Positions 3,482 through 51,086 of a stretch of DNA of 64,000 nt are shown piece by piece; within the stretch, counting starts at the first letter, position 1; every line of letters begins with the position of its first letter. Made by a program: the position numbers and the translations under genes. Under the pieces are notes generated by a model. That model ran no database searches, was not told where the DNA came from, and saw only the letters and a program-made list of their open reading frames with translations. The stretch is from Asanoa ferruginea (GTDB lineage: Bacteria > Actinomycetota > Actinomycetes > Mycobacteriales > Micromonosporaceae): positions 6,324,001 through 6,388,000 of the forward strand of contig NZ_QUMQ01000001.1 of the NCBI RefSeq assembly GCF_003387075.1. The letters are read 5' to 3'.

Positions 3482-3482
3482 G

Positions 3483-4229
3483 TCAGCGGGCGACCAACGA
3501 GACCTCGAACGAGTAGCGGTCGGCGCGGTAGACATGGGAGCCAAACTCGACCGCCCGGCCGGCGTGGTCATACGCCGTCCGCTGCATGGTCAGCAACGGT
3601 GCGCCGCGGCCCTCGCCGAGCAGCCGCGCCTCGGCCGTGGTGGCCCGCCGAGCACCGATCGTCTGGTCGGCGATCCGCAGTTGCACGCCGTGTTCGCGCA
3701 GCACCTGGTAGAGGCCGCGTTCGCCGAGTTGGGCCGCGGTCAGGCCGGGCGCGACGGCGCGGGGCAGGTGGTTGTGCATCAGGGCCAGCGGCTCGTCGTC
3801 GGCGAAGCGCAGGCGCTCGATGGTGAAGACCTCGGTGCCCGGCTCCAGGTGCAGCGCGGCCCGGATCGGCTCCGGCGCCGGGGCGACCGAGAACGCCAGC
3901 ACCTGCGTACGCGGCTCCCGGTTTGCCCGGCGCAGGTCGTCGTCGAGGCTGGTCAACTCGACCTTGCGGCGCACCGCGCTGTGCACGACCTGGGTGCCGA
4001 CGCCCCGCTTGCGCACCACCAGGCCCTTGTCGACCAGCGTCTGGATGGCCTGGCGCATGGTCGGCCGGGACAGGCCGAGCCGGTCGGCGAGGGTCACCTC
4101 GGTGTCGAGCCGCGAGCCGGCCGGCAGTTGGCCCGACTCGATGAGGTCCTCCAGGGTGGTGGCGACCTGGAAGTAGAGCGGCACGGGGCTGAACCGGTCG
4201 ATGGTGATCAGGCTGGCGATGCCGTCCAC
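3483..4229 (-). CDS. GntR/HutC-family transcriptional regulator (probable inositol regulator)
   Basis: A 248-residue regulator with an N-terminal GntR winged helix (YFQVATTLEDLIESG, LADRLGLSRPTMRQAI, about residues 18-75) and a C-terminal UTRA ligand-binding domain (TIERLRFADDEPLALMHNHL and later EFGSHVYRADRYSF). It starts with GTG, with GGAG about nine bases upstream. It is divergent from the inositol catabolic operon across a 121-base gap, so it most likely represses that operon and senses inositol or a pathway intermediate; this is inferred from position. Its stop lies one base from the stop of the convergent kinase-LanC gene, with no terminator visible between them. Confidence 0.88.
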   Translation of the reverse strand: MDGIASLITIDRFSPVPLYFQVATTLEDLIESGQLPAGSRLDTEVTLADRLGLSRPTMRQAIQTLVDKGLVVRKRGVGTQVVHSAVRRKVELTSLDDDLRRANREPRTQVLAFSVAPAPEPIRAALHLEPGTEVFTIERLRFADDEPLALMHNHLPRAVAPGLTAAQLGERGLYQVLREHGVQLRIADQTIGARRATTAEARLLGEGRGAPLLTMQRTAYDHAGRAVEFGSHVYRADRYSFEVSLVAR

Positions 4230-35400: not shown

Positions 35401-35904
35401 GATCGTGCTCGGCGAGGCCAACCGGGCGCCCGTTTGCCCGCGCCAGAAGTCGGCGAGCGCGTCCTTGGCCGGTGCGACAGCGGTGGCGTTGATGCTCGAC
35501 AACGCCTGGGCTCCGCGTTGCGCGGCACCGGTGCCGCCCCGGACGATCAGGGGCAGGGTCGGCGACGTGGCGTCGCCGTAGCCGTCGGCGATCAGCCGCT
35601 GCACGTCGAACAGGTCGGTGTCGAGCCGGCCGGCCGCGATCAGCGGGACCGCGTCGCTGGGCACGACGCGCAGCCCGCCGTCGACTTCCAGGGTGTGGAA
35701 GGTGATGCGCTCGCGGCCGGGTGCGGGATCGACCGTGGCGGCGTAGCGGCCGGCCTGGGCCGGGGTCAGCTCCACGGTGTCGCCGGTGACCAAAGTGATG
35801 CGCGCGGCCACGGCTGGGCTTTCTGGTGCCGGGCCGCCGCCGTGCGCGAGGGCGGGGGTGACCGCCACCCCGGCCAGGACGCCGACGATCAGTCGACTGA
35901 GCAT
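32458..35904 (-). CDS. Large secreted S8-family serine peptidase (subtilase)
   Basis: A 1148-residue exported protein. Signal peptide residues 1-20 (MLSRLIVGVLAGVAVTPALA) are followed by a propeptide-like region to about 190. The catalytic triad is visible: Asp206 in VAVLDTGID, His238 in GHGTHVA and Ser413 in SGTSMATPHVAG. The 680 residues after the catalytic domain are beta-rich, with segments like Ig/fibronectin or jelly-roll modules, as in other actinobacterial S8 proteins of 1100-1200 residues. It is probably a secreted protease for protein scavenging or development. It is divergent from the five-gene giant-protein operon (191-base gap) and convergent with the regulator. Confidence 0.9.
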   Translation of the reverse strand: MLSRLIVGVLAGVAVTPALAHGGGPAPESPAVAARITLVTGDTVELTPAQAGRYAATVDPAPGRERITFHTLEVDGGLRVVPSDAVPLIAAGRLDTDLFDVQRLIADGYGDATSPTLPLIVRGGTGAAQRGAQALSSINATAVAPAKDALADFWRGQTGARLASPSTIFLDGKVRATLDRSAAQIGAPQAWQRGLDGHGVKVAVLDTGIDATHPDLAGKVVEARNFSTSADTVDHFGHGTHVAATIAGTGQASGGSRKGIAYGADLLVGKVLGDDGVGFESQIIEGMQWAAGSGAKVVNMSLGGDPTDGLDPMSLAVDELSRQSGTLFVVAAGNAGGTATVGSPGAAREALTVGAVDRADQLADFSSRGPRLGDQGLKPELTAPGVDIVAARAAGTTMGNPVDTYYTAASGTSMATPHVAGAAAILAQEHPDWTGAALKNALVSTAQTTPNLPVYAQGAGRVDVARATGQEVTGTGVADFGLHTVGGPTDGTRTVAYTNGGNSPVSLALTAPAAVKLSAAAVIVPAHGTATVDATVDFETLPLGTLSGWITATATGGVRVTTAVGAVKDGPVHRVTVRALDRTGKPTAVPVLTLMGDDARSDVLGWVPDGGATYEVHEGTYLLHALIEDGARSDEQATLTAIPELKVDRDVEVLVDARKGTPIRIETPRPAEQRAVLSYYVHRVTGSGRDIAHGVMHFSNVRQVNVAPTKPVRAGSFEFSSRWQLVAPMVRASVGGPVDLNLMGNSPAWAGTRTFALAKSGDRDVRGKAVLIPPDDQDELVKIDAAARAGAAVALVVRPPDFSTWTSWSPDGERLPVVSLVLDEATADTIARRANRTLSLTLTTSSPYLYDVIQVSPGRIPESIVHKVTPANSMRITSSYADNGGFDWVREQRFGWRPWQTYAWNDVSRDVRTPSVREEWVSAGDSLWQHYVADDYPWLFGPLASGFREAPRSYRAGHSATTWAAPVVRPTDLGSNRTGDVLHLRVPALVDHDGHYAHIATDQVDATLWRNGGVVAELPDGWQDVTTTPGDAAYRLRVTTAHGGEDWTLGTRTATEWTFRSGKAGDLPLLTVDYDVREKGVALRFPTALRTLRVDVSTDDGVRWRQATVRDGTALVSRGRTPVSLRVRATDRAGNTVDQTVIRAYGRD

Positions 35905-36095: not shown

Positions 36096-38030
36096 ATGGC
36101 GGATCCGCTCGTCGACGAGCTGGCCGCTCGGCCCGAGCTGTTCGCGCGCGAGACCGACGGTGCCCTCCGGCACTGGTTCACCCGGCGCAGCCTGGCCTAC
36201 CTGCGCGCCGGCCCCGCGCCGGCCGACGAGCGGGCCGACCTGCTCGCCGCGCTCGGCCTGGCCCGCACGCTGGCCGCCGAGGTCGGCGTCGCGCTCGCCG
36301 CTGAGCCCGACCCCGAGCTGCGCCGGTTCACGCTGAGCCAACTCGCGGTGCGGGCGGCTTACGGCGCGCTCGGCGTGCACCCCAAGGCCCTCCTGCGTGA
36401 GGACCGTGCCGACTATCTGCTGTTCATCGTCAAGCGCCGGATCTTCGCCGTCGACCGGTGCCGCGCCAACGTCAACGACGGCAGCGAGTTCACCTATCCC
36501 GAGGCGGGTGACCTGCTCCGCCAGCACCCGAACGCGCCGGCGCTGCCTTCCTGGGTGGGTGTCACCGTCGCGCCACTGGGCGGGGTCAACCGCTATCCGT
36601 TCGTGCTCACCGCGGCCGGGCTGGCCAACCCCGACCAGGCGGTCACCACGATGTTCACCGCCGGCGCGCAGCCCGAGGGCGACGAGAACGTCTTCGACTG
36701 CGCCGGCGCCGCGATGACGGTGCACACCGACGCGCTGGTCGAGGCCGCGGTGGCACCGGCCACCCTGGCCGCCGCGCTGGCCGCCGAGGGGCCGCGCTAC
36801 CTGGCCATCGACCATCCGTTCGGCAGCGCGGCGGTCGTCGACAACACGCTGGTGCAGGGCGCCACCCCGATCACCGTCGCGGCCGCGGCGGCCGGTGACC
36901 ACGTCGACGTGCCGGTGGCCTTCGCCTGGACCACCCCGCCACCACCGGCCACCATGATGCTGATCGGCCCGACCCAGGAGGAGCAGGTCGTCGTCGAGTC
37001 GGTCGGCTGGGCCAACGGCCAATACACCGGCACGATCCGGATCGCGCACCTGGGTGCCGACTACCCGGCCGGGTCCCGGCTGGTGCCGCCGGGCCGCCCG
37101 GCGTTCCACCTCATCACCGATCCCCGGCCCGACACCGCGCTGTTCGAGCAGGTGTTCGTGCCCGACGACGAGATCCAGATCGGCGACCACGTCTACCTCG
37201 CGAGCCATCCGATCCACCGCAACATCCTCAGCGTGCTGGCACCGACGCCGTGGGGCGGCGAGCACGCGTTCGTCTGCGACGCGCCGGTGACCCGCCGCGA
37301 CACGATGCTCATCAGCGGCCACGGGGTCAGCGAGCAGCCGTTGCGGCACGCCGTCGACACGAAGCTGCTGGTCGACTCCAACGCGCTGATCGACATCCTG
37401 CGCAACGTGCTGCGCCGCCAGCTCACCACGCCGGCCGCTCCGGTGTGGACCGGGCCGTTCGCCGACCTGAGTCTCGCGGCCGACCTCGGCGCCCGGCTGC
37501 GCGACCGCTACGGCGAACCCGACGATGCCCCCATCGTCGGGACCTGCAAGGTGTACGAGTATCCCGGCGTCGAGTTCGACCGGGCCGACTCGGTGGAGCG
37601 GCTGATGTCGAAACCGTTCCAGACGATGACGTTCGAGGGCACGGTCGGTGCCGCCGCGCTCGACGCGCACACGTTCGTGCTCTACCGCGGCGTCGAGTTG
37701 GGACACAGCCCGACCGACTGGTCGTCGCCGCCCTACCTGCCGCTCGAGCGCAGCGAGACGGTCAACGCGGGCCGGCCCGAGTTGGAACGGTTCGGGTTCT
37801 ACTACCGCGACGACACCCGCGCGTTCACCGAGGTGTTCCTGCCGCTGTTCCACACCGATGCCGACCGGCGCAGCGGCGTCCGGCGACTGACCTACGACGA
37901 CATCACCCAGCAGTTGTACGGCGGTCCGACCGGAACCGCGTTCGTCACCCGGCCGCGGGTCGTCGACGACCCGACCGGCAGCTACGTGGCATCCCTGCGG
38001 CAGAAGGGAGCGCTGCCGGCCACGCCGTGA
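36096..38030 (+). CDS. Tgl-like (protein-glutamine gamma-glutamyltransferase fold) protein, first gene of giant-protein operon
   Basis: A 644-residue protein with no signal peptide or membrane helix. Two blocks resemble Bacillus spore coat transglutaminase Tgl. The first is AVTTMFTAGAQ then VFDCAGAAMTVHTDALVE, like Tgl AIRDIFANG then TECATAMVIIYYKALLE, and places a nucleophile at Cys202. The second is IGDHVYLASHP, WGGEHAFVCD and ISGHG, like Tgl GDRRYFANPD, WQGENVIDLG and YYGHG, and gives Glu389 and His409. About 110 beta-rich residues are inserted between the two blocks. This suggests a papain-like cross-linking, amidase or peptidase fold. The N-terminal 150 residues and C-terminal 200 are unrecognised. 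ATG 36096 follows AGGAGCGCGCAG. The DUF6603 gene starts 14 bases downstream. The Tgl resemblance was aligned by eye. Confidence 0.55.
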   Translation: MADPLVDELAARPELFARETDGALRHWFTRRSLAYLRAGPAPADERADLLAALGLARTLAAEVGVALAAEPDPELRRFTLSQLAVRAAYGALGVHPKALLREDRADYLLFIVKRRIFAVDRCRANVNDGSEFTYPEAGDLLRQHPNAPALPSWVGVTVAPLGGVNRYPFVLTAAGLANPDQAVTTMFTAGAQPEGDENVFDCAGAAMTVHTDALVEAAVAPATLAAALAAEGPRYLAIDHPFGSAAVVDNTLVQGATPITVAAAAAGDHVDVPVAFAWTTPPPPATMMLIGPTQEEQVVVESVGWANGQYTGTIRIAHLGADYPAGSRLVPPGRPAFHLITDPRPDTALFEQVFVPDDEIQIGDHVYLASHPIHRNILSVLAPTPWGGEHAFVCDAPVTRRDTMLISGHGVSEQPLRHAVDTKLLVDSNALIDILRNVLRRQLTTPAAPVWTGPFADLSLAADLGARLRDRYGEPDDAPIVGTCKVYEYPGVEFDRADSVERLMSKPFQTMTFEGTVGAAALDAHTFVLYRGVELGHSPTDWSSPPYLPLERSETVNAGRPELERFGFYYRDDTRAFTEVFLPLFHTDADRRSGVRRLTYDDITQQLYGGPTGTAFVTRPRVVDDPTGSYVASLRQKGALPATP

Positions 38031-38044
38031 GGCGCGCCGGCACC

Positions 38045-41000
38045 ATGGCCATGGACCAATACCGGATCACCATCCTCGCGGTCGACTTCATCGCACCGCT
38101 GGCCGAGGCGACCACCAGCCCGGCCGCCGAGGCCCGGCTACTGCGAGCCCTGGGCTTCGCCCCGCCCGACGGGTTCACCCTGCTCAGCGGCCTGGCCCCG
38201 GCGGTCGAGGGCCTGGTCGGGGCGGCCATCGACCTGGTCGGCACCGATCCCGACGCCGACGAGAGCGAGTGGCTGGGCAAGTTCGCGGCGGTCACGGCCG
38301 CCCTGGTCGAGGCGGTGGTCGCCGCGCAGCAGTTCGCCGCCGGGCTGCCGGCCGGCACGCTCAACTCGCCGTTTGTCACCGGGTCCAACGTGCTCGACGA
38401 ACTCCCGGCGCGGCTGGCCAACCACCTGGTGGTCAGCTTCCTCGAACGGCGGCTGCCGGCCGCGTACGCCATCCTGGTCGTCACGGGCATCATCGAGGTG
38501 GCGCTCGAAGCGCCCACCGGGCCCTATGTCACCGCCTTCACCCGGCGGACGATGCGCTGGGACCGCATCCCGACGGTGCTGTCCGACCCGCTCGGCGCCC
38601 TGCGCGAGCGCTACGCCTGGGCGGCACCGTCCGGTGTAGACGTCGACCTGCTGGTGCGCGACCTGCGGCTGCTGATGGCCGGCTTCGGGTTGCGCGCCGA
38701 ACTCCTCTCGGTTGACAAGCGGGCCCGCGCGGCGATCGACCTCGCGCTGGCCGGCAATGGGCGGGTGCCGGTCGCGCCCGACACGCTGGTGCTGCGCGCC
38801 CCGCTGCTGCCGCTGGAACCCTCGCCGCTCGGGCTGGAGGTCTACCCGGTCGTCGACCAGGCCGGAACCGCCGACGGCTTCGGCGTCGCCGCCTACCTCG
38901 ACGCCAACGCGACCATCGTCTTCGAGCTGTCGCCGACGCTGCGCGCCGAACTGACCGTGGGCGGCTACACCAGCGGCTTCGGCGTGGTGCTGCGCCGCGG
39001 CCAGGACCCGCGGCTGACCACCCCGATGCTGGGCACCACGCCGGCGTCCATTCTCGACGGTGTCGAGCTCGATGTCGGGCTGGCCCTGGTGGCCGAACGC
39101 CAGGGCGCGCCGCTGATCCCGCTGGGCACCGCGGGCTCGACCCACCTGGAGTTCGGCTCGATCACGGCGCGGTTCGACGTCGGCAAGCCGATCAGCGGCC
39201 CGGCCGACTTCGGTGTCGCGCTGGAGATCGCCAAGGGCGCGCTGGTGCTCAAGGCCGGTGACGGCGACGGGTTCATCAGCAAGATCTTCGGCGAGGGGTT
39301 CATCCTCTCGTTCGACATCACGGTCGGCTTCTCCACCGAGCGGGGCCTCTACTTCGAGGGCGCGGGCGGGATCGAGTTCGAGATACCGATCCACGAGGAC
39401 CTGTTCGGCATCCTGCTGATCGACTCGGTCTTCGTCGCCCTGCGGCTGGAGACCACCGGGATCGCCGCGGTCGTCGCGGCCACCGCCACCGTCTCGCTCG
39501 GCCCGGTCGTCGCCACCGTCGAACGCATCGGCCTCAAGGTCGAGTATCCGCTGCCCACCGCCGACGAGTTGCACGCCAACGGCCCGACGCTGTCGTTCAA
39601 GCCGCCCAACGGCGCGGGCCTGGTGATCGACGCCGGCCCGGTCGTCGGCGGCGGCTACCTCATGATCGACAGCGACAACGGCCGCTACGCCGGCATCCTG
39701 CAACTCGCGATCCAGGGCACCCTGTCGATCACCGCGATCGGGTTGATCGTCACGAAGATGCCCTCGGGCCGGCAGGGCTTCTCCGCCGTCATCATCCTGA
39801 CCGCCGAGTTCCCGCCGATCCAGCTCAGCTTCGGCTTCGTGCTCACCGGCCTGGGCGGGCTGCTCGGCGCCAACCGGTCGATGAACGTGCAGGCCATGCG
39901 CGACGGCGTACGCAATCGTGGTCTCGACTCGGTGCTCTTCCCGCGCGACCCGGTGGCCAACGCGCCCAAGGTGATCCGCGACCTGGAGTCGTTCTTCCCG
40001 ATCGTCGAGGGCCAGTTCGTGATCGGGCTGATGGCGGCCGTCGGCTGGGGCAGCCCGCCGCTGATCAAGGTCGAGCTGGGCATCCTGATCGAGCTGCCGT
40101 CACCGATCCGGATCGCGCTGCTCGGCCGGCTGACCGCCGCCCTGCCGACCGAAGACGCGGCGGTCGTGCTGCTGCACGTCGACGTGCTCGGCATCCTCGA
40201 CTTCGCCGCCAGCGAGCTGTCCATCGACGCCACCCTCTACGACTCGCGGGTCGCGATCTTCACCCTGACCGGCGACTTCGCGGTCCGGCTCAACTTCGGC
40301 GCCGCGCCCGCGTTCGCGTTCTCCTGCGGCGGCTTCAACCCGCGGTTCACCCCGCCGGCCGGGTTCCCGACCCTGCGCCGGGTGTCGATCGCGCTGGCCA
40401 CCTCGGAGAACCCCCGGATCCGGCTGGAGGCCTACCTCGCGGCCACCCCGACCAGCGTGCAGATGGGCGCCAAGCTCGACCTCTACGTCGAGGCCGACCT
40501 CGGTTTCCTGGGCCTCTTCTCCGCCTCGGTCTACCTGGGCTTCGACGCGCTGGTCTATCTGGTGCCCCGGTTCTCGTTCATCGTCGACCTGTCCGGCGGC
40601 GTCGTCATCAAGCGCAACGGCAGCCCGCTGCTGAGCGCGACCGTGGCGCTGACGCTGACCGGCCCGGAGCCGTTCACCGCCGCCGGCTACGCCGAACTCG
40701 ACTTCTTCGGCAAGCACCGGATCGCGTTCGAGGCGACGATCGGGGAAGAACGTCCGCAACCGGCCCTCGAAGCCGGCGACCCGATCGGCGACCTGCTCGC
40801 CGCGCTCGGGCTGCCCGGCGCCTGGCGGGCCGCGCTTCCGCCGGCCGGCGGCACCCTGGTCACCCTGCGCGAGCCCGACGAGTCCGAACTGGACGATCTG
40901 CTGCTGCACCCGTTCGGCGTGGTCGCGGTCAGCCAGCGGATCGCGCCGCTGGACGTGCCGCTCGACCGCTACGGCGGCGCGGCCGTGCCGCCGCAGGCCC

Positions 41001-41473
41001 GCACGCTGAGCCTGGCCGTCACCATCGGCGGGGCCGCGGCGACCGGCGACCAGGTCCGCGATCCGTTCCCTTGCGGCCAGTTCTTCGACCTCACCGACGA
41101 GGCCCGGGTGACCGGCGAGGCGTTCCCCCGGCTGCCCAGCGGGCTGTCCGGCATCCGGGTGCCGGCCGCCGCACCGGTCGCGGCCGGTGAGGTCACCGGC
41201 GGCGAGGGCTACGAGACGGCGGTGGTCAACCCGGCGAGCTGGCGCCCGCTGCCGGCGCCCGGCGGCTACACGTTCACCGCGGAGGTGCTCGACGTGCTCG
41301 TCCACGCCGGTGCGGCCGGACGCGCCCGGGACACCGGGTTCGCCGGGCCGTCGCTGGGCATCGCCGTCGCCGAGAAGTCCTATGTGGCCGGCGGTGCGAC
41401 CTACGCCAGCGTGGTCGAAGCCGCGGCGTCCCGGCAGCCGGTCGTCGGCGCGCACGAGACGGTCGCGCCGTGA
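38045..41473 (+). CDS. DUF6603-domain giant beta-rich protein
   Basis: A 1142-residue protein. Residues 1-170 are helical; from about 270 to 1000 it is an almost continuous run of alternating hydrophobic beta strands. FVLTGLGGLLGANRSMNVQA, RNRGLDSVLFPRDPVANAP and SLDATLYDSR-like text (SIDATLYDSRVAIFTLTGD) match my recollection of the DUF6603 family. No signal peptide, catalytic motif or transmembrane helix is apparent. Family function is unknown. The start may instead be GTG 38027, which overlaps the upstream stop and would add six residues; ATG 38045 or 38051 are the alternatives. It overlaps the next gene by four bases. Confidence 0.75.
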   Translation: MAMDQYRITILAVDFIAPLAEATTSPAAEARLLRALGFAPPDGFTLLSGLAPAVEGLVGAAIDLVGTDPDADESEWLGKFAAVTAALVEAVVAAQQFAAGLPAGTLNSPFVTGSNVLDELPARLANHLVVSFLERRLPAAYAILVVTGIIEVALEAPTGPYVTAFTRRTMRWDRIPTVLSDPLGALRERYAWAAPSGVDVDLLVRDLRLLMAGFGLRAELLSVDKRARAAIDLALAGNGRVPVAPDTLVLRAPLLPLEPSPLGLEVYPVVDQAGTADGFGVAAYLDANATIVFELSPTLRAELTVGGYTSGFGVVLRRGQDPRLTTPMLGTTPASILDGVELDVGLALVAERQGAPLIPLGTAGSTHLEFGSITARFDVGKPISGPADFGVALEIAKGALVLKAGDGDGFISKIFGEGFILSFDITVGFSTERGLYFEGAGGIEFEIPIHEDLFGILLIDSVFVALRLETTGIAAVVAATATVSLGPVVATVERIGLKVEYPLPTADELHANGPTLSFKPPNGAGLVIDAGPVVGGGYLMIDSDNGRYAGILQLAIQGTLSITAIGLIVTKMPSGRQGFSAVIILTAEFPPIQLSFGFVLTGLGGLLGANRSMNVQAMRDGVRNRGLDSVLFPRDPVANAPKVIRDLESFFPIVEGQFVIGLMAAVGWGSPPLIKVELGILIELPSPIRIALLGRLTAALPTEDAAVVLLHVDVLGILDFAASELSIDATLYDSRVAIFTLTGDFAVRLNFGAAPAFAFSCGGFNPRFTPPAGFPTLRRVSIALATSENPRIRLEAYLAATPTSVQMGAKLDLYVEADLGFLGLFSASVYLGFDALVYLVPRFSFIVDLSGGVVIKRNGSPLLSATVALTLTGPEPFTAAGYAELDFFGKHRIAFEATIGEERPQPALEAGDPIGDLLAALGLPGAWRAALPPAGGTLVTLREPDESELDDLLLHPFGVVAVSQRIAPLDVPLDRYGGAAVPPQARTLSLAVTIGGAAATGDQVRDPFPCGQFFDLTDEARVTGEAFPRLPSGLSGIRVPAAAPVAAGEVTGGEGYETAVVNPASWRPLPAPGGYTFTAEVLDVLVHAGAAGRARDTGFAGPSLGIAVAEKSYVAGGATYASVVEAAASRQPVVGAHETVAP

Positions 41474-44073
41474 GCCGCCGCTACCTGCCGAGCTGGCGGA
41501 TCGGTGCCGGCACGCTGGTCAACCAGGCGGATGGGCCGGCCGTGCCGAGCGAGGCGACGCTCAACCTGGCCGCCCGGGTCACCGCCGACCCGGCCCGGTC
41601 GGCGACGCTGGCCGCCCGGCTCTACGGGCCGGGCCGGGTCACCGGGCTCGACGTCACCCAGATCATCCGCACCGAGCCGGCCGCCGGCGCCACCGACTTC
41701 GAGCCCAACTACCTGTGCGCGGTCGAGTTCGACGCACCCGAGCTGCCATGGATGTTCACTCCTGCGGCGCCCAACGCGCTCGGCCAGCTCCGCCCGTGGC
41801 TGGTGCTGGTCGTCGTCCGCCGGTCGGCCGCCACCCTCGATCCGTCGGGGCGCCGGCCGTCGCCGGTGCTGGTCACCGACCCGTCGGCGGAGCTGCCCGA
41901 CCTCGCGCAGAGCTGGGCCTGGGCACACGTCCAGCTCACCGGTGCCGGCGCCGCGACCGACCTGCTGACCACCGGCCCGGCGGCCCGGACGCTGTCCCGG
42001 CTGCTCTGCCCGCGCCGCCTCGACCCGGACACGGCGTACGTGGCCGCGCTCGTGCCGGCGTTCGCGCAGGGCGCGCAGAGCGGCCTCGGGCTGCCGGTCG
42101 ACGGCGGCGACCTGCGGCCGGCGTGGCTGCCCACCGACCAGTCGGTCGAGCTGCCGGTCTATCACTCGTGGGAGTTCGCCACCGGCCCCGCCGGCGACTT
42201 CGAGGAGCTCGCCGCCCGGCTGCGCCTGCACCAGCCCGACGCCGCCGCGCTCGCCGGCCTGCCGCTGTCGATCCCGGCCCAGCCCGGGCTGCCCGACGGC
42301 GGCACCGTCCGGGTGCCGGGCGCGCTCGGCACCGGCGGCCAGGCCGGCAGCCCGGTCGACGCCGACGTGGCCGACGCCATCGAGGCCATGCTCGAAGCCG
42401 ACGAACTGCCGGCGTACGGGCGCTGGCACGCCGGCCGGCCCACCGCCTGGCTGGCCGGCCTGGTGCTCGAGCCGGCGGCCCGCGCGGTCGCTGCGCTCGG
42501 CACCCGGGTGGTCCAGGAGCGGCAGGAGCAACTCATGGCCGCCGCCTGGGCCCAGGTCGGCCCGGTCCAGCGCGCCAACCAACTGCTGCGCCAGGCCCAG
42601 CTCGCCCGGGAGGCCGGCGGCGCGCTCTGGCGCCGCCATTTGGTGCCGCTGCCGGACGCGGCGCTGCTCGCGGTCGCCGGCCCGGCCGCCACCCGGCTGT
42701 CCGGCGCCGACCGGCGGACGATCGCCGCCCACGTCGCGGCGTCGCGGGTTCCGGCCGCCCTGTTCACGGTCGCGGCCCGGCGCGCGGCGCGGCACCCCCG
42801 GACCGCCGCCCTGATCATCCGGGCCAACGCGCGCGACGGCAGCGCGGGCCGGCCCCGACCGGTCGGCGAGCCGGCCCTCCGGCCGCCGGGCATGGTCAGC
42901 GTCGACGACCTGCGCGGCCGCGATGACCTGCCCCCGCTGTGCGGGCTGACGCCGGACTGGTGGGCGAAGCTGCCGCCGGCGCAGACGCCCGTGCTGCAGG
43001 CGATGCGCAAGGCCCTGGCCACCCACGCCGCCGGCGCCGGCCCGTGCGCGCCGCGGCCACCCCGACCACCGCTCGACGTCGCCGGGCTGGCCGGCGCCGC
43101 CCGCACCGGGCTCGACCCGCGGACCGCGGTCACCGCCGCGACCCTGGCCCGGCTCACCCTGCCCGCCGGTTGGGCGCCGGCGGACCCGCTCGAGCCGGTG
43201 CTGGCCGCGCCGGACTTCCCGACCCCGATGTTCCGGACGGTCGCCGAGCTGGCTCCCAGCCTGCTGCTGCCGGGCGTCAACGACCTGCCGCGCAACAGCG
43301 TGTCGCTGGTCGGCACCAACCCCTGGTTCACACACGCGTTCCTGGTCGGGCTCAACCACGAGATGGGCCGCGAGCTGCTCTGGCGCGGCTACCCGACCGA
43401 CCAGCGTGGCACCTACTTCCGCCGGTTCTGGGACCGGCGCGGCTCCGTGCCCCCGAAGACCGGCGCCGACCTCGACGACATCACCGCGATTCCGGAGTGG
43501 ACGGTCGGCGACCCGCTCGGCGCCGCGGGCGCGGCCGGCGCCGACAGCGCGCGCCTGGTCCTGGTGATCCGCGGCGAACTGCTCCGCCGCTACCCGCGAA
43601 CCGTGATCTACGCGGCGCGTGCGCAGTGGAGCGGCGACGCCGAGCCCGTGCCGCGGCTGGCGGCCGGCGCGGAAGAGCGACACCCGGAGTTCAGCGGAGC
43701 CCTGCCGCCCGACGTCGCGTTCCTCGGCTTCGACCTGACCGTCGCGGCCGCCCGCGGCACCGACACCGACCCCGGCTGGTATGTGGTGTTCGCCGAGCCG
43801 CCCACCGAACCCCGCTACGGGCTCGACGTCGACGCTCCGGCCGCGCCGACCGGCACGTGGGGCGACCTGTCGTGGGCCGCGGTGACCGTCGACGCCAGCG
43901 GGCACCTGCGGCTCGGCGCCACCGACCCGGTCACCGTCAGCCCGGCCGTCGACCCGCGCGGCCTGCACCTGACCGCGACGACGACCAGCGCCCAGGTTGC
44001 CGCCATCGTGGAGCAGCGCCAGTACCGGGTCGCCATCCACGCCCGCCGACTGCTCCCGGAGCCCACCCCATGA
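41470..44073 (+). CDS. Large conserved protein of unknown function, third gene of giant-protein operon
   Basis: An 867-residue protein starting at a GTG that overlaps the DUF6603 stop (GTGA). I recognise the segment VGLNHEMGRELLWRGYPTDQ then RGTYFRRFWD (about residues 625-660) as a conserved block of large hypothetical proteins found in scattered bacterial phyla beside DUF6603-type genes, but no function is known to me. An Ala-rich helical stretch (ERQEQLMAAAWAQVGPVQRA, near 350-390) divides an N-terminal and a C-terminal half. No signal peptide or membrane helix is visible. It overlaps the next gene by four bases. Confidence 0.7.
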   Translation: MSRRYLPSWRIGAGTLVNQADGPAVPSEATLNLAARVTADPARSATLAARLYGPGRVTGLDVTQIIRTEPAAGATDFEPNYLCAVEFDAPELPWMFTPAAPNALGQLRPWLVLVVVRRSAATLDPSGRRPSPVLVTDPSAELPDLAQSWAWAHVQLTGAGAATDLLTTGPAARTLSRLLCPRRLDPDTAYVAALVPAFAQGAQSGLGLPVDGGDLRPAWLPTDQSVELPVYHSWEFATGPAGDFEELAARLRLHQPDAAALAGLPLSIPAQPGLPDGGTVRVPGALGTGGQAGSPVDADVADAIEAMLEADELPAYGRWHAGRPTAWLAGLVLEPAARAVAALGTRVVQERQEQLMAAAWAQVGPVQRANQLLRQAQLAREAGGALWRRHLVPLPDAALLAVAGPAATRLSGADRRTIAAHVAASRVPAALFTVAARRAARHPRTAALIIRANARDGSAGRPRPVGEPALRPPGMVSVDDLRGRDDLPPLCGLTPDWWAKLPPAQTPVLQAMRKALATHAAGAGPCAPRPPRPPLDVAGLAGAARTGLDPRTAVTAATLARLTLPAGWAPADPLEPVLAAPDFPTPMFRTVAELAPSLLLPGVNDLPRNSVSLVGTNPWFTHAFLVGLNHEMGRELLWRGYPTDQRGTYFRRFWDRRGSVPPKTGADLDDITAIPEWTVGDPLGAAGAAGADSARLVLVIRGELLRRYPRTVIYAARAQWSGDAEPVPRLAAGAEERHPEFSGALPPDVAFLGFDLTVAAARGTDTDPGWYVVFAEPPTEPRYGLDVDAPAAPTGTWGDLSWAAVTVDASGHLRLGATDPVTVSPAVDPRGLHLTATTTSAQVAAIVEQRQYRVAIHARRLLPEPTP

Positions 44074-47000
44074 CCAGCCACGGGCACCTGGCCGCCCTCC
44101 GCGAGATCGCCGAGCGGTCCGCCGCGACCGTCGCCGACCTGACCACCCGCCTCGGTGCGGCGACCCGGTTGCTCGCCACGCTGAGCCCGGCCGACCGGCC
44201 CGCGTGGGTGCGCCAGCAGCGGCTCGTCGCGCAGCTCACCGAGGCGCTCACCGCGGCGCTGGGCGGCGCGACGGCCGATGCGGCCGGCTACCGCGCCGCC
44301 CTCGACGCGCTGCCGGCCGCGCTCGATCCCACCGTGCCGTGCGCGCTGCTGCCAGTGCGGCTGGAGACCCGGCTGCGGGCCCGCACCGACGGACAGCCCG
44401 GCGACGAACTCGTCTGCCGGATCTACCCCGACGACATCCACCTCGACGGGCACGATCCGACCCTGACCGAAACCGAGATCATCCTGGGTACGCACTACTG
44501 GGAGCAGCGTTCGGCCGGTAACGAGGATGCGGCCTGGGCGCAACTCGCCGCCCGGCTGACCGCGCCGCGTGCGGCGTGGGTGGCGCGTCAGCTCACCCCT
44601 GGCGTCCTCCCATTGCCGGAGCCGCGTGGCCCCGACGGCCGGCCGACTGTCGTGAGTGGACTGCCGGACCGCTGGGTGGTCCGGCTCTGGCGGGACGGCC
44701 GCCGGATCGGCGAGTCGCGCGGCGAGCTGATCCCGCGTCCGCTGCCGATCGGCCCGCTCGCCGGCCCCTGGACCACCGACCTCGCCGCCGCGCTGAAGGT
44801 CGGCATGGCGGTCGTGGTGCGGCCCGACCCGCCGGTGCCGCTCGACCGGGTCGACCTGGTCACCGCGGTCGGCGTGCGGGGCAGCGACACCCCCGACGAC
44901 AGCGCGGTCGTGCTGCGCGACCTGTTCGACGCGCACCTCTACGCGGCCCGGCTCAACGGGCCGGGCCTCGATCTGGTGCCGGCCGGCACGCCGACCAACA
45001 ACACGCCCGCGTTCCGCAGCCCCAACCGGCGCGACGCCATCGGTGAGCGGGCGGCCGGCAGTTCGCTCGGTCCGCGTACGGCCGAGCCCGGCGACGGCTC
45101 CGGCGCCGACCTGCTGGCCGCGGCACTCGGCCTGCCGCTGCGCGATCCCGACCCGGCCGGCCCCGACGAGCGCTTCGTGCTCGGCCGGCTCGAGCACGGC
45201 GCCGACCCGGGCCAGCGCGACGCGGCCGACCTGGCCACCGTGCTCTGGCCGGCGACCTGGGGCTACTACCTGCGCGAGTTCCTGCCCGAGGTGTCCATCC
45301 TTGGCCCCGGCGCCGACCTGAGCGGGTGGCGGCGGTTCGTCGTCGACACCGTGCGCGGCCGCGGCCCGTTGCCGGCGCTGCGGGTCGGCGACCAGCCCTA
45401 CGGCGTCCTACCGGTGCTGCCGCTCGCCGACCGGCGACCCTGGCCCGACCGGCCCGACCTGGTCGTCGCCACCCCGCCGGCCAGGCGCGGCGGCCCGGCC
45501 CGGCTGCGGATCGGCTGGGACCTCGACGCGACCGGCGCGGTGACCCGGGGCTGGACCGACGCCGGCGAGATCCCGCTGGAAAAGCCGGTGACCGGCTTCG
45601 ATCTGGCGGCGGGCGCGCTCGGCGGGCGCCCGGTGCTGGTGGCACTCACCATCTCGGACGGTCTCGTCGCCTACCGGGTCGGCGGGCTCGGCGGAGACTG
45701 GGGTCCGGCGTGGCCGGTCGAGGTGAAGGCCGCCCGCGCGACGGTCGCACTCACCCCCGCGGCGGCGCTCGTCGTCGCGGCGCAGACCGTCGGCCGGCGA
45801 CCGATCCGGCCGGGCCTCGCCGACGAGGTGTCGACGCTGATCACCGTCGGCACCGGACTGAGCGCTGACGGCGCCGTCGAGAACTGGTCCGCGCCGGTCC
45901 GGGTGCCCGACAGTGAGCGCCTCGGCCGGCTCGCCGGCGCCGCGGCCGCCGGTGGCGACCTGGTGCTGGCCTACGTGCGCGACACCGAGTTGCTGCTCCA
46001 GACGGGCCAGCGACTGCGCGACGACGGCGAAGCCGAGTGGGCCGAACCCCGGTCGGTGCCACTGCCGGAGAAGACCGAAGACGCCACGGCCAGCATCGCC
46101 CTGACCCCGGCCGGCGAGGTGGTGGCCTGGGTCTCCGGCGCCGACGGCCGGGCCTGGTATTCGGTCTTCACGCTGGCGGACGACGGCGGCGCGGTGTGGT
46201 GGCACCCGGAGGCGGGCGCCGCCTCGATCGCCGTCGCCTCACTCGGCGCGGCACCGGGCGGCGGGCTGCTGGAGTTGCTTTCCCGGGCGCGCGCCGACTG
46301 GGCCAATGCGACCGCCGCCGTGCCGCGGATCGGGCGGCAGGCCGACCCGACCGACGACCTGCTCGACCTGTTCGCGGCCGACGCGGTGTCGGGCGGCGTG
46401 CGGGTGCGCGGCCTGCTCGGCCCGGTCCTGCTGGCCAACATGTGGCTGGCCAGCGGGCGCACGCCGGACCTGGCCCGCTATGACACCGGGCTGTGGCAAC
46501 AGGCCCGCGCGCTGCTGCACGACTGGGGCCTGCTCGACCCGGCCGCGCCGGACGCCGGCTCGCCGGTGGGCAAGCCCCGGTTGGGCCGGTCCGGGTTCGA
46601 GGAGGTGGCCACCGAGTTCACCGGGCCGCTGGCCACCGACGCCTCGGCGGCGACGCTGACCGGCGCCGCGGCCGCCAAGCCCGACGAGCTGGAGCGGCTG
46701 CGCTTCGGGCCCGACGACGGGCTGCTCGACCGGCTGGTGCGGCACGCGACCATGCAGGCCTGGGCCGACGCCGGGGTCGAGTTGCTCCCGCCGGCCACCG
46801 TGCCCCTGCTGGAGCCGGAACTCGTCGACCTCAACGACCTGCGTACCGCCGATCCGGTGTCCAATCCCTTCACCTGGACGGCGTGGCGGCACCTGCGCAC
46901 GCGCGAGTTCCCGGCCGGCCACCAGTGGCAGGGCCGGCTCGTCTGGGAAGGCGTGGCGGGCCTGCTGGCGCAGGCCGAACAGGGCATCGACCTCAGCGGG

Positions 47001-49292
47001 TACGGCGCCGCCGGCGAGCGGATCGTCGAGCTGGCGGAGCTGCGGGCGGCGCTGGCCCGGCTCGCGTCCCGGCCGGCCGACGTGCTCGCGTGGACGCTGG
47101 CCGAGACGCTCGACGTGTCCGCCTACCGGCTCGACGCCTGGCTCACGGCGGTGGCCACCGAGCGGCTGCGCGCGCTGCGGGCGGCCCGTCCCGAGGGCGT
47201 CCACCTCGGCGGCTACGGCTTCGTGGTCGACCTGCGGCGGCGCACCGGCCCGGCCAGCGAGGGCTACCTGCACGCGCCCTCGGTGGGTCAGGCGACCACG
47301 GCCGCGGTGCTGCACGCCGCCCACCTGGCACACGCGGGTGACCCGGGCACCGGGCCGAAGCTCGCGATCGACCTGACCTCGAAACGGGTACGCGACGCGG
47401 CCGACCTGGCCGCCGGCGTGCGCACCGGGCAGCCGCTGGGCGCGCTGCTCGGCTACCGGTTCGAGCGGGCCCTGCACACCGGGCTGGGCCGCTACCTGCC
47501 GGCGCTGCGCCAGCTCTACCCGATGGCCACCGGCAAGCTCACCGATGCGCCGGACGGCACCCCGGTCGCCGACCTCGGCGCGACCGATGTCGTCGACGGG
47601 CTGGCGCTGCTGCGGGCCGAGCTTCCGTGGGGCATCACGCCCAGCGGGGCCGACATCGCGCTGCCGGCCCGGGCCAGCGCCGACGGCGCCGCGCTCGACG
47701 GGCTGATCGAGGCTTTGCGGGAGTCCGTCGACGCGCTCGGCGACCTGCTGGTGGCCGAGTCGGTGCACCAGCTGGTCAACGGGAACCCGGCGGGTGCGGG
47801 CGGCGCGCTCGACGCCCTCGCCGGTGGCGACGTGCCCGCGCCTGATCCGGACGTGCTGCGTACGCCTCGGGCCGGCATCGGGGTCACCCACCGGCTGCTG
47901 GTGGCGCTGCCGGACTCGGCACCGGCCGGGTGGGCCGACCGCCCGGCTTCGCTCGCCCAGCCCCGGCTCAACGCCTGGGTCGCGACGCTGCTGCCCGGCC
48001 CCGACGCGATCCGCTGGCGCACCGGCGCGGGCGACACCTACTCGGTGGCGGATCTGGGCCTGTGCCCGCTGGACCTGCTCTACCTCGCGCAGGAGCCGGC
48101 CGACGGCGACACCGACACCAGCGACCGCGACGCCCGCAGCGAACTGGAACGGCTGCTGGCACACCACGCCGGCTGGACGGCCGACCTGGTCCTCGACCGC
48201 GCCGCCGACTGGACCGCCGAGGTGCTGAGCGTCCCCGAGGCCCTGGAGCTCTGCGCCGCGGCGCGGGCCGTCGTCACGGGTGCCCGGCCGGCCACCGCCG
48301 ACGACCTGGCCGGACCGCGCGGGCTGCGCGGCGACCCCGACGTGGACCTGACCGGCACGGCTTCCGCCGCGACTGACGCCGTCGCCGCGCTGACCGACGC
48401 GCTCGACCGGCTCCGGGCGCCGTTCGAAGGGCTGCTCGACCTGCCCGCGCACCTCGACCTGGCCGACCCGGTCCTGGCCAGCGGCCTGCCCGCCGACCCC
48501 GCAGCGGTCCGCGCGGTGCTGGTCGAGCTGACCGGCTACCGGATCGAGCGGGCCGCGCCGGGCGCGCCGGACGACCCCGTCGCGCTGGCCGAGCAGTGTC
48601 GCCGGGTGGCCGCGGAGGTTGCGCTCCGGCTGGGCAAGGCCGCCGCGTCCGCCGGCGACCCCGTCGCGGTGCTGGTCGCGCTGTTCGGCGATGGTTTCGT
48701 GGTGGTGCCGCCGGTGCGGTCGGCCGGCTCGCTGGCCGCGGCTTCCGGCGGCGTCGACGACGGCACGCTCGGCTCCTGGCTGGAGGGCGCGGCATTGGTC
48801 CGGGCCGGCGCCGCCCGGCTGGCCGACCTGCGCCTGCTCGCCGGCGCGGCGAGCTCCGGCGCGGCCACGTCGCTGCGGCTGGCCCAACTGCCCGCGGGAG
48901 ACTGGGCCGGCGGGGCCTCCGTACCCGTGGCGGGCACGATCGCGATGGTCTTTCTCGGCCAGCCGCCCAAGTCGGTCGCGGCGTTGCTGGTCGACGAGTG
49001 GGTCGAGGTGGTGCCGTCCGCGCGGCAGGACACCGCGGTGACGTTCCACCTCGACGCCCCCGACGCGTGCGCGCCGCAGAGCGTGTTGTTGGCGGTGGCC
49101 GGCGACCCGACCCGTGGTTGGGACCACGACAGCCTGGAGCGCGTCGTCATCGACACGCTCGACCTGGCCCGCGCGCGGGCCGTCGACCTCGACCTGATGG
49201 CCGGCGCGCACCCAGGCCATTTCCTGCCGGCCCTGCTGTTCGCCCGCAACGACGAGGGCGCCACCGTGTCGACCGACTTTCCGAGCGCCTGA
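44070..49292 (+). CDS. Giant 1740-residue protein of unknown function, fourth gene of giant-protein operon
   Basis: A 1740-residue protein beginning at ATG within ATGA of the upstream stop. The N-terminal 350 residues include CRIYPDDIHLDGHDPTLTE and GTHYWEQR, a block I recall in the same family of large hypothetical proteins. Residues about 520-715 look like beta-propeller blades, with repeated pieces such as GDWGPAWPVEV, VENWSAPVRVP and AEWAEPRSVPLP. The remainder is Ala/Leu-rich and largely helical with Asp-rich loops, without membrane segments. No catalytic motif was recognised. It could be a scaffold. The last gene of the operon follows after nine bases. Confidence 0.7.
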   Translation: MTSHGHLAALREIAERSAATVADLTTRLGAATRLLATLSPADRPAWVRQQRLVAQLTEALTAALGGATADAAGYRAALDALPAALDPTVPCALLPVRLETRLRARTDGQPGDELVCRIYPDDIHLDGHDPTLTETEIILGTHYWEQRSAGNEDAAWAQLAARLTAPRAAWVARQLTPGVLPLPEPRGPDGRPTVVSGLPDRWVVRLWRDGRRIGESRGELIPRPLPIGPLAGPWTTDLAAALKVGMAVVVRPDPPVPLDRVDLVTAVGVRGSDTPDDSAVVLRDLFDAHLYAARLNGPGLDLVPAGTPTNNTPAFRSPNRRDAIGERAAGSSLGPRTAEPGDGSGADLLAAALGLPLRDPDPAGPDERFVLGRLEHGADPGQRDAADLATVLWPATWGYYLREFLPEVSILGPGADLSGWRRFVVDTVRGRGPLPALRVGDQPYGVLPVLPLADRRPWPDRPDLVVATPPARRGGPARLRIGWDLDATGAVTRGWTDAGEIPLEKPVTGFDLAAGALGGRPVLVALTISDGLVAYRVGGLGGDWGPAWPVEVKAARATVALTPAAALVVAAQTVGRRPIRPGLADEVSTLITVGTGLSADGAVENWSAPVRVPDSERLGRLAGAAAAGGDLVLAYVRDTELLLQTGQRLRDDGEAEWAEPRSVPLPEKTEDATASIALTPAGEVVAWVSGADGRAWYSVFTLADDGGAVWWHPEAGAASIAVASLGAAPGGGLLELLSRARADWANATAAVPRIGRQADPTDDLLDLFAADAVSGGVRVRGLLGPVLLANMWLASGRTPDLARYDTGLWQQARALLHDWGLLDPAAPDAGSPVGKPRLGRSGFEEVATEFTGPLATDASAATLTGAAAAKPDELERLRFGPDDGLLDRLVRHATMQAWADAGVELLPPATVPLLEPELVDLNDLRTADPVSNPFTWTAWRHLRTREFPAGHQWQGRLVWEGVAGLLAQAEQGIDLSGYGAAGERIVELAELRAALARLASRPADVLAWTLAETLDVSAYRLDAWLTAVATERLRALRAARPEGVHLGGYGFVVDLRRRTGPASEGYLHAPSVGQATTAAVLHAAHLAHAGDPGTGPKLAIDLTSKRVRDAADLAAGVRTGQPLGALLGYRFERALHTGLGRYLPALRQLYPMATGKLTDAPDGTPVADLGATDVVDGLALLRAELPWGITPSGADIALPARASADGAALDGLIEALRESVDALGDLLVAESVHQLVNGNPAGAGGALDALAGGDVPAPDPDVLRTPRAGIGVTHRLLVALPDSAPAGWADRPASLAQPRLNAWVATLLPGPDAIRWRTGAGDTYSVADLGLCPLDLLYLAQEPADGDTDTSDRDARSELERLLAHHAGWTADLVLDRAADWTAEVLSVPEALELCAAARAVVTGARPATADDLAGPRGLRGDPDVDLTGTASAATDAVAALTDALDRLRAPFEGLLDLPAHLDLADPVLASGLPADPAAVRAVLVELTGYRIERAAPGAPDDPVALAEQCRRVAAEVALRLGKAAASAGDPVAVLVALFGDGFVVVPPVRSAGSLAAASGGVDDGTLGSWLEGAALVRAGAARLADLRLLAGAASSGAATSLRLAQLPAGDWAGGASVPVAGTIAMVFLGQPPKSVAALLVDEWVEVVPSARQDTAVTFHLDAPDACAPQSVLLAVAGDPTRGWDHDSLERVVIDTLDLARARAVDLDLMAGAHPGHFLPALLFARNDEGATVSTDFPSA

Positions 49293-49301
49293 GGAGCGGC
49301 C

Positions 49302-51086
49302 ATGGCATCGGTGACGAGCTGGACCAGGCTGGAGCCCACCAGCCGCAGCCGGGCGATGACGGGTTTCGCGGCCCGGGTCGGCGACCCGCTGTGGCTGCTC
49401 GCGCGGCAGTGGCAACTCGGTGAGCTGACGGGTTCGGATGGCGGCTCGCCGACCCAGGTGGACCTGGTGGTGGAGACCGCGCGGCTGACCCGCTACCGGC
49501 CGGGCATGCCGGACGGCACCCTCGGGCAGCCGCTCGACCCGCGGCTGCCGCTGGAGTCGGTCGTGGAGGCCGAGACGGTGGCCGGCCCGGCCGACGACCG
49601 CGCTGCGGCGGTGGCCGGCGCCGACCTCCTGCGTCGCCTCGGCGAGTTGGGGCAATCCCTGGTGGACGCCGCCGCTCCGCCGGTGGACGCCGCCGCTCCG
49701 CCGGTGGACGCCGCGGCTCCGCCGGTGGATGCCGTCGTGCCGGAGCACGGCGAGGGACGGTCGGCGGCTGTGGCAGGCGGCGATGCGCTTCGGCGGGGCG
49801 GCGACCTGCGGCAGGCGCTGGTGGATGCCTACCGGCTGCCGGTGCCGCCGGCTGACGCCGATCCGGCTGTGCGGCGGCGGGCCGAGCTGTTGCGGCGGCG
49901 CGTACCCGATGGGCGGTTGCTCTTCACTGCCCTGCGCAAGGCGCGCGATGGCGGTGACGTCAGCACCGCGCTGCCGCTGGACCGGGGTGACCCGAAGGCG
50001 GTCGAGGCCGCCCGCCGCGCCGCCTCCGAGTGGCTGGACGCCTGGGAGGTCGGTGCGCCGGTCGCCGCGGGTGGGTCGCCGCCTGCCTGGCGGCCGGAGA
50101 GCGTCGACTACGGGTTCGCCGTCGCGGCGGCCGGGCCTGGTGCGGAGCGGGTGCTGGTCGCTGACGGCTACGCGGGGGAGCGGATCGACTGGTGGTCGCT
50201 GGACGCGGCGCCCGGTGCCGCGCTCGGCGCGAGCCGCGACGGCGCCGTGCGGCGGATCGCGTCGGCGACGCTGCCGACCCGGGTCGCCGGTGCGGGGCTG
50301 CCGGCCTCCCGGTTCTGGGCGTTCGAACCCGGCGACGTCAACCTCGACGCGGTCAGTGCGGCCCCCGAAGACCTCGGCCGGCTGTTGTTCACCGAGTTCG
50401 CGGTGGCGTTCGGCAACGACTATTTCGTGGTGCCGGTCGAGGTCGAGGTCGGTTCGGTGACCAGCGTCGTCAGCCTGACCGTGACCACCACGTTCGGCGA
50501 GACGGTGGCCGTGCCGTCGGGCGTCGCCGCCGACACCGCCGCCGGGCGGCGCCCCGTGCGGATGTTCCAGCCGACCAGCAACGGCGGCGGTGCCGAGCCG
50601 TGGCTGGTGGTCCCGCCGGGTGGCGTGTCGCCGCTCGCGGGCGAGGCGGTCGAAGACGTGCTGCTGAGCATCGACGAGATGGCCAACCTCGCGTGGGCGA
50701 TCGAACGCCGGGTGCCCGGCATCGACGGCCGGGGCGCCGAGCGCGCCGAGGCGCTGCACCGGGCACCCACCGAGCCGGCGGAGCCGCGGCCGGGGCCGTG
50801 GTACCGGCTGGCCACCTCCGTCGCGGCCAACTGGCTGCCGATGGTCCGGTCGACGACGGGGCGGCCGGTGCTGCGGCTGACCGGCATGCCGCACGGCCGG
50901 CTGCTGCGGGCCGGGGGAGAGCTGAACGCGGAACGGCTCGGGCGGGCGGGAATCCGGCTGACCAGGCGGGCGGCGCGGGCTCGGAGCATCGACGGCCGTA
51001 CCGTCGTCTGGATGGCCCGTCGCTCGGAGCCCGGCCGAGGCGAGAGCACCAGCGGATTGCGGTTCGACTCCATCGTGGACGACTAG
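49302..51086 (+). CDS. Conserved protein of unknown function (DPLWLLARQWQ family), fifth gene of giant-protein operon
   Basis: A 594-residue protein. The N-terminal block RVGDPLWLLARQWQLGELTG (about residues 26-45) followed by GGSPTQV is a conserved signature I recall in hypothetical proteins that accompany the preceding families; no function is known to me. A low-complexity linker with three to four copies of PPVDAAA lies near residues 122-145. The beta-rich second half includes WAFEPGDVNLDAV, FTEFAVAFGNDYFVVPVEVE and SLTVTTTFGETV, suggesting a large beta domain. No signal or membrane segment. It starts nine bases after the previous stop, with GGAGCGGCC as ribosome binding site, and ends the operon. 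Confidence 0.7.
   Translation: MASVTSWTRLEPTSRSRAMTGFAARVGDPLWLLARQWQLGELTGSDGGSPTQVDLVVETARLTRYRPGMPDGTLGQPLDPRLPLESVVEAETVAGPADDRAAAVAGADLLRRLGELGQSLVDAAAPPVDAAAPPVDAAAPPVDAVVPEHGEGRSAAVAGGDALRRGGDLRQALVDAYRLPVPPADADPAVRRRAELLRRRVPDGRLLFTALRKARDGGDVSTALPLDRGDPKAVEAARRAASEWLDAWEVGAPVAAGGSPPAWRPESVDYGFAVAAAGPGAERVLVADGYAGERIDWWSLDAAPGAALGASRDGAVRRIASATLPTRVAGAGLPASRFWAFEPGDVNLDAVSAAPEDLGRLLFTEFAVAFGNDYFVVPVEVEVGSVTSVVSLTVTTTFGETVAVPSGVAADTAAGRRPVRMFQPTSNGGGAEPWLVVPPGGVSPLAGEAVEDVLLSIDEMANLAWAIERRVPGIDGRGAERAEALHRAPTEPAEPRPGPWYRLATSVAANWLPMVRSTTGRPVLRLTGMPHGRLLRAGGELNAERLGRAGIRLTRRAARARSIDGRTVVWMARRSEPGRGESTSGLRFDSIVDD
49665..49735 (+). repeat. 21-base in-frame repeats encoding PPVDAAA
   Basis: Three near-identical copies plus a partial copy of GGTGGACGCCGCCGCTCCGCC encode a Pro/Ala-rich linker within the fifth gene of the operon. 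Confidence 0.8.

Follow-up and report, generated by a model that had tools for sequence, protein, structure and literature searches.

A conserved four-gene unit with an exchangeable, mostly catalytic partner: a possible mobile carrier in bacteria and haloarchaea

The genome of Asanoa ferruginea raises the question of what a row of five adjoining genes for very large proteins belongs to, and what such a row might do. The window analysed here, a stretch of 64,000 nucleotides (contig NZ_QUMQ01000001.1, positions 6,324,001 to 6,388,000) from a single-contig genome of 9.07 Mb, contains these genes on the plus strand at 36096-51086, and an earlier note made from the sequence alone had proposed that all five genes form one system, with conserved blocks of genes 3-5 occurring together in unrelated phyla. 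The row was confirmed, with junctions of +14, -4, -4 and +9 bases, and the same five genes were picked by a codon-usage gene caller. The proposal held for genes 2-5, which were found together in bacteria and archaea, but not for gene 1. Genes 2-5, called the core here, are one real conserved unit, and gene 1 occupies a place beside gene 2, called the slot, which other loci fill with other proteins.

A search of genome contigs with gene 3 found nine loci, in Bacteroidota, Gemmatimonadota, Actinomycetota, Chloroflexota and Pseudomonadota, and tblastn at these nine placed genes 2-5 next to each other in the same order as far as the contigs extend. All four core genes were present in 39 of the 59 loci with any core match (the window included, nineteen short or duplicate loci having been dropped beforehand), and the order 2-3-4-5 on one strand was kept in each of the 39, which come from Bacteroidota, Actinomycetota, Pseudomonadota, Gemmatimonadota, Chloroflexota and haloarchaea, minor-strand matches being left out of this count. 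The other 20 loci comprised 12 cut by the end of a contig or record (L003-L006, L026, L027, L037, L038, L044, L052, L058 and L076, in which L004/L037, L005/L038 and L044/L027 are paired ends of one genome's cluster each), four of a second cluster type, one decayed copy, and three with a gene-5 piece only. At the last three (L040, L045 and L077) the C-terminal part of gene 5 alone was recognisable, and the upstream sequence at hand was without gene 4. Genes 2 and 3 overlapped at 25 of 42 junctions, and non-core genes within the cluster, mostly for kelch or coiled-coil proteins, were called at five of the 59 loci. The earlier note had named families occurring mostly apart as the outcome that would speak against a system; those of genes 2-5 occurred mostly together.

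The identification of gene 2 as DUF6603 was upheld by its match to PF20248 (E 3e-121, 405.8 bits against a cut-off of 27). This family was found in nine of 296 genomes of the window's own phylum and in none of 14 control genomes. Six of the nine also had the gene-5 family, and the other three (G204, G246 and G261) had the second cluster type; in the reverse direction, one of seven genomes with the gene-5 family lacked a DUF6603 match (G269, in about 590 contigs and with a gene-5 piece only). Occurrence of DUF6603 alone was rejected, as the three exceptions carry a gene-3 homologue beside it. The second type, represented by the loci of these three genomes and of an Embleya plasmid (L041-L043 and L061), consists of DUF6603, then a remote gene-3 homologue, then one or more other large proteins. 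The profile of the four remote homologues matched the gene-3 set at 99.3% (E 2e-20), and homology of the further large proteins to gene 4 or 5 was not supported, with no profile alignment obtained. Upstream of the second-type cluster in L041 lies a gene for a weakly metallo-beta-lactamase-like protein, below the cut-off.

Pairwise tree distances of genes 2-5 were correlated with r of 0.72 to 0.94 over the 37 loci at which coverage of all four proteins was good (L039 and L049 were left out on this ground), and for each of the six gene pairs none of 2000 label permutations, which keep shared ancestry, gave a value as high. On the joint core tree the phylum label changed 8 times, against a minimum of 4 and an average of 15.0 in shuffles, and the four putative Streptomyces loci L065-L068 were placed among Bacteroidota. 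Because the joint tree departs from taxonomy, the core unit seems to have moved between lineages as a whole.

The gene adjoining gene 2 changes with lineage. PhoD-like phosphatases were the commonest occupant, at 12 loci (by Pfam in L004, L005, L006, L008, L009 and L069; by similarity in L007, L021, L025, L039, L046 and L048), the sequence between PhoD and gene 2 in L005 being partly N. S1-like proteases were found at five loci with eight proteins (L002, L053 twice, L057 twice, L065 twice and L067), a class in which one scanned protein exceeded the Pfam trypsin cut-off and the rest lay near it or were assigned by BLAST and a GDSG motif; L057b was without the motif by the pattern used. Further occupants were S8 proteases (upstream in L032, L034 and L066, downstream in L056), M64 metallopeptidases (L024 and L068), a galactose-oxidase-like protein (L010), WD40 proteins (upstream in L022, L073 and L074 (by eye), downstream in L051, L070, L071 (by eye) and L072), unclassified proteins (L033, L044, L050, L052/L062 and L054), and three small genes in L023, while other loci had none. 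Where present, the slot gene mostly adjoins gene 2 directly or overlaps it; among the called genes, which are of at least 50 residues, small ones in the 100 bases preceding the slot gene are seen at few loci. The slot protein of Halalkalicoccus matched the C-terminal part of the BTH_I2691 family of type VI secretion system (T6SS) effectors at 2.6e-10, over a hydrophobic segment, and weakly shares this region with the slot proteins of Halobellus.

On the core tree the slot class, scored with 14 labels including 'none' and the unknowns, changed 19 times, against a minimum of 13 and an average of 26.8 in shuffles; judged on this tree, it partly tracks the core and is partly exchanged. Exchange is plainest in the clade L065-L068, where the occupants are S1, S8, S1 and M64 proteases, respectively. 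L067 and L068 share 53% identity in gene 2 and 72, 70 and 73% in genes 3, 4 and 5, respectively, and their enzymes are unrelated, so the slot occupant has been exchanged between unrelated enzyme classes with the core kept. One genome (G1335) holds two clusters of different slot type, L067 with the S1-like protein upstream and L071 with the WD40-like protein downstream.

The S1 and S8 slot proteins have a common C-terminal domain of about 120 residues, which looks helical, despite their unrelated catalytic parts. A hidden Markov model (HMM) of this tail, built on seven proteins, recovered four further ones at about 1e-25. In 30 genomes all eight of its matches lay within clusters, seven of the eight being members of the tail alignment, and two tail queries against 72,556 plasmid records matched Gemmatirosa and Paraburkholderia only, both cluster-bearing (one query gave four places, and the best per record was counted). 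Most slot PhoDs have another kind of C-terminal extension, about 190 residues long, and comparison rejected a relationship between the two tails. The HMM of the PhoD tail, also from seven proteins, found L025, L006 and L007, and L048 weakly (8.5e-4), which brings the number to 11 of the 12 slot PhoDs; it found none of five stand-alone plasmid PhoDs, which include two closely similar pairs and remained of six fetched after one lacking annotation was set aside. Since enzymes of different classes carry domains peculiar to one gene cluster, docking to the core would be the best explanation of the tails.

In the window the slot holds gene 1, which the earlier note had described as having a Tgl-like active site. 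The residue pattern is present, with a Cys in FDCAGAA (36693-36713), GEHAFVC (37257-37277) and GHG (37314-37328), and resembles the order of Cys and then GHG in Tgl-type transglutaminases, but no family or structure match was obtained: residues 151-485 had no Pfam match up to E 10, and no transglutaminase was among the PDB chains compared with gene 1. The gene-1 family was found in its own genome alone among 296 of its phylum (scoring covered at most a few candidates per genome), in no record of the plasmid collection, and, by tblastn, at none of the first nine relative loci. Membership of gene 1 in the conserved core was rejected, with no relatives in the 295 other genomes or the plasmids; because other loci carry other proteins at its place, it is most plausibly one exchangeable slot protein among many. 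Divergent from gene 1, with 191 bases between the starts, lies a gene of 1148 residues on the minus strand (32458-35904), whose product is S8 subtilase-like by eye with a signal-like start; S8 proteases fill the slot in other loci.

The features of the window are listed in the table. The start of gene 5 was placed at 49356 by the codon-usage caller, and the conserved N-terminus ...TSWTRLEP favours the start at 49302. The three sequence blocks that had been pointed out as conserved in genes 3-5 proved to be so, each holding several invariant columns of its family.

Table. Features of the five-gene row, with positions numbered within the window.
Feature	Position	Strand	Description and basis
Gene 1, 644 residues	36096-38030	+	Occupant of the slot here, probably enzymatic (putative class from the residue pattern); coding by codon usage
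Gene 2, 1142 residues, DUF6603	38045-41473	+	Core protein 1; PF20248 and conserved order
Gene 3, 867 residues, with block VGLNHEMGRELLW	41470-44073	+	Core protein 2; remote homologue in second-type clusters
Block VGLNHEMGRELLW in gene 3	43345-43383	+	
Gene 4, 1740 residues, with block CRIYPDDIHLDGH	44070-49292	+	Core protein 3; conserved family
Block CRIYPDDIHLDGH in gene 4	44415-44453	+	
Insertion in gene 4, about 270 residues, this locus	45456-46259	+	Weakly BNR/sialidase-propeller-like, not significant
Gene 5, 594 residues, with blocks DPLWLLARQWQ and C-terminal GRGExxSGLxFD	49302-51086	+	Core protein 4
Block DPLWLLARQWQ in gene 5	49383-49415	+	

Genes 1, 3, 4 and 5 had no Pfam match over the cut-off, two weak ones lying at E 0.01-0.03, and NCBIfam and PADLOC gave no match to any of the five proteins at E up to 1. 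PHROGs yielded nothing significant for genes 1-5 (one weak match of gene 2, E 0.15). The absence of recognised biosynthetic enzymes was likewise borne out, with no Pfam or NCBIfam enzyme over the cut-off in genes 1-5. The description of the proteins as soluble and free of transport signals stood in part: genes 1-5 have no N-terminal hydrophobic segment, but solubility is not proven because of internal hydrophobic stretches in gene 2 (hydropathy score KD19 1.87) and gene 4 (KD19 1.95).

The same features were seen over the core families. Among 179 core proteins longer than 400 residues (47, 44, 44 and 44 for genes 2-5, some incomplete), none reached a KD19 of 1.8 within the first 45 residues, in a signal check made by hydropathy alone. 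Internal values of 1.8 or more occurred in 24 of 47 gene-2, 8 of 44 gene-3, 2 of 44 gene-4 and 0 of 44 gene-5 proteins. The median grand average of hydropathy (GRAVY) of gene 2 was +0.18, against -0.19 to -0.29 for genes 3-5, which is hydrophobic for a protein without a signal. Gene 2 starts in an alpha-type pattern and then shows two-residue alternation over most of 201-900, stronger and longer than in genes 3-5; this amphipathic beta pattern fits a predicted barrel, groove or solenoid. Insertions of at least 60 residues cluster at two sites midway along gene 3, with 12 and 11 cases, and at a small number of sites in gene 4; gene 5 has few and gene 2 none. Pfam recognised FG-GAP repeats in the inserts of two gene-3 proteins (one scoring just too low for the cut-off) and, in a single gene-4 protein, decapeptide repeats; the window's own gene-4 insert matched BNR_2 at E 0.15 and neuraminidase chains at E 0.7, neither significant. 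In L066 gene 2 carries a fused kelch propeller, and a further, separate kelch-type gene stands between genes 2 and 3 in each of L066-L068. In L035, which has no slot gene, gene 2 bears an N-terminal extension of about 1000 residues resembling its own later parts. Comparison with the PDB gave no relative judged meaningful for any of genes 1-5, for the S1/S8 tail, for the insert of gene 4 or for a slot PhoD. A domain common to the core proteins was rejected on negative profile comparisons, the best being 35% probability for genes 4 and 5.

The cluster is patchy even within one genus. Genomes were sampled with the gene-5 profile; as scoring mostly stopped after a few candidates in each genome, the counts are minimum values. 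The gene-5 family was found in at least 7 of 296 genomes of the window's own phylum and at least 3 of 41 relatives (own genome included in both), and in none of five others of its own genus. Including the seed in each case, it was present in at least 6 of 247 genomes of Bacteroidota, 4 of 130 of Gemmatimonadota, 3 of 201 of Chloroflexota (one a weak piece), and 1 of 299 of Pseudomonadota, the seed itself, and it was found in at least 11 of 150 in the genus of G193, a putative Streptomyces (one a weak piece).

The plasmid collection of 72,556 records gave 13, 13, 12 and 14 matching records for genes 2, 3, 4 and 5, respectively. Fifteen records had any core protein, 12 of them all four by tblastn, three of these 12 being Streptomyces longwoodensis strains of which one was fetched. 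A Nocardia plasmid had all four by HMM, raising the number to 13 of 15; the Embleya plasmid has the second type, and that of Streptomyces anthocyanicus a decayed copy. Four of the 15 records are haloarchaeal. The plasmid of Halobellus sp. DFY28 (NZ_CP134947.1) holds two cluster copies (L052 and L062), with genes 3 and/or 4 split into several frames. The decayed copy (L060, NZ_CP109276.1, 15724-17743), on a Streptomyces plasmid, consists of the end of gene 4 and a gene 5 still in open frame; IS5-type transposase genes lie some kilobases upstream of it. In L048 (NZ_CP107814.1), a gene annotated as an RHS repeat protein lies at 277-3594 on the opposite strand, a few kilobases upstream of the cluster.

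A phage origin was rejected: 2.9 million viral contigs contained no confirmed relative of genes 2 and 3, in a pattern-based search of limited sensitivity, and a single contig of 4,053 bases had a gene-5 piece. Among 50,697 phage records, one unverified entry (MT835531.1, L049) matched genes 3 and 5. This record, labelled Bacteriophage sp. and from human faeces, contains genes 3-5 and the end of gene 2 with bacterial-looking neighbours, and is probably a bacterial contig.

We tentatively read genes 2-5 as a mobile four-protein carrier of an exchangeable, mostly catalytic slot protein, probably used against other cells, and give this reading a probability of roughly 0.4. The four proteins would assemble into a complex to which the C-terminal tails would dock the slot enzyme. 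Gene 2, with its long amphipathic beta region and no export signal, might be the part that contacts the membrane or serves as a conduit, and the variable insertions of genes 3 and 4 could provide target recognition. In competition or predation among microbes, the enzyme would be delivered to the surface or the interior of other cells; delivery to other cells appears the most likely use in view of the mobility and patchiness of the cluster and the T6SS-effector-like slot match. As no signal segment was seen, the particles might be released by lysis or another route.

Several observations weigh against this carrier. In sequence searches genes 1-5 showed no signal segment and nothing recognised as belonging to a secretion or injection apparatus. 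An occupant of the slot may be optional, since at four complete loci (L035, L036, L047 and L055) none is present in the 260 bases before gene 2 or the 100 bases after gene 5; in L051, L056 and L070-L072 the only partner lies downstream of gene 5, and the WD40 occupants are not enzymes. The tails occur on S1, S8 and PhoD proteins only, gene 1 of the window, the M64 and galactose-oxidase-like proteins and others being without either, and the slot PhoD of L021 has no tail detectable by HMM. PhoD domains are common outside clusters, as in 18 of 22 plasmid records matching a slot PhoD, at lower identity. The genomes in which the S1/S8 tail was counted all bear a cluster (27 of this type, 3 of the second), cluster-free sequence being represented by the plasmids. 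The BTH_I2691 match comes from one protein and scored 39.5 bits, below the family cut-off of 150.

A bolder form of the carrier reading is doubtful: a new cell-to-cell delivery particle of bacteria and archaea, unrelated to phage tails, in which four giant proteins would form a carrier with an amphipathic beta conduit, loaded with an enzyme of any of several classes through its dedicated C-terminal tail and retargeted by variable inserts such as propellers.

The alternative that survives best, itself unlikely, is an intracellular defence system whose core senses an invader through the inserts or propellers and releases or activates the slot effector within the cell. The patchy, mobile and plasmid-borne cluster would suit it, as would the WD40, kelch and FG-GAP propellers and hydrolases of the kinds used as defence effectors; two of ten scanned slot proteins, both S8, matched the PADLOC subtilase and IetS models. 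However, the other eight matched nothing there, nor did any of the five window proteins, and genes 1-5 include no nucleoside triphosphatase (NTPase) or nucleic-acid-binding family. The annotated plasmid regions named no defence neighbour, judged by names and not by a PADLOC scan; L062 has a VapC-type toxin-antitoxin pair.

Use of the core as an exoenzyme scaffold, in which released particles would hold scavenging enzymes outside the cell for nutrients and would not be aimed at other cells, is rather improbable. The slot classes are typical exoenzyme classes, the stated plasmid sources are saline soil, sediment, soil or root nodule, and a scaffold would need no immunity genes. Signal segments are nevertheless absent, the haloarchaeal slot protein has a T6SS-effector-like membrane segment, and free enzymes with signal peptides would be a cheaper way to the same end. 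Even less can be said for a maturation enzyme, a slot protein that processes or cross-links the core as its product, such as a coat or matrix. Proteases and a Tgl-like pattern suit processing, and about 4,300 residues of partly amphipathic beta protein suit such a product, but PhoD at 12 loci and the galactose-oxidase-like and WD40 occupants are unsuited to a single processing step, and occupant-free loci exist. A chance or loose gathering of genes without common function could be argued for gene 1, which has neither relatives found nor a conserved link, but for genes 2-5 it is already refuted by one order and strand at 39 of 39 loci in bacteria and archaea, congruent trees and gene 2/3 overlaps at 25 of 42 junctions.

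We could find no assigned function for this unit, which totals about 4,300 residues, keeps its gene order from Bacteroidota to haloarchaea and occurs on plasmids. The tails predict further members of the system and binding by some core subunit, which makes its function testable. A true carrier would be a new kind of enzyme delivery, and a defence system would be one without an NTPase.

The cluster shares features with several known systems. Like extracellular contractile injection systems and T6SSs, the cluster has exchangeable effectors with tail or adaptor domains, and one haloarchaeal slot protein resembles the C-terminus of a T6SS effector; unlike these and phage tails, genes 1-5 have no sheath, tube, baseplate or spike match in sequence searches. 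With polymorphic toxin systems it has in common a variable catalytic part beside a conserved carrier and horizontal spread, but here the enzyme is a separate gene, no consistent small partner was called, and genes 1-5 lack RHS, WXG and signal parts. Effector-sensor conflict systems with protease effectors resemble it in their S1-like and S8 proteases and propeller proteins, and differ from it in that the cluster has no NTPase switch and genes 1-5 no PADLOC match. Searches of the open-access literature, with most subscription papers outside it, found no paper dealing with a cluster of this kind or with DUF6603 (PF20248). Gene 2 belongs fully to DUF6603, a family that is a name only; what is new beyond that name is three further large partners, an often swappable enzyme and a second cluster type.

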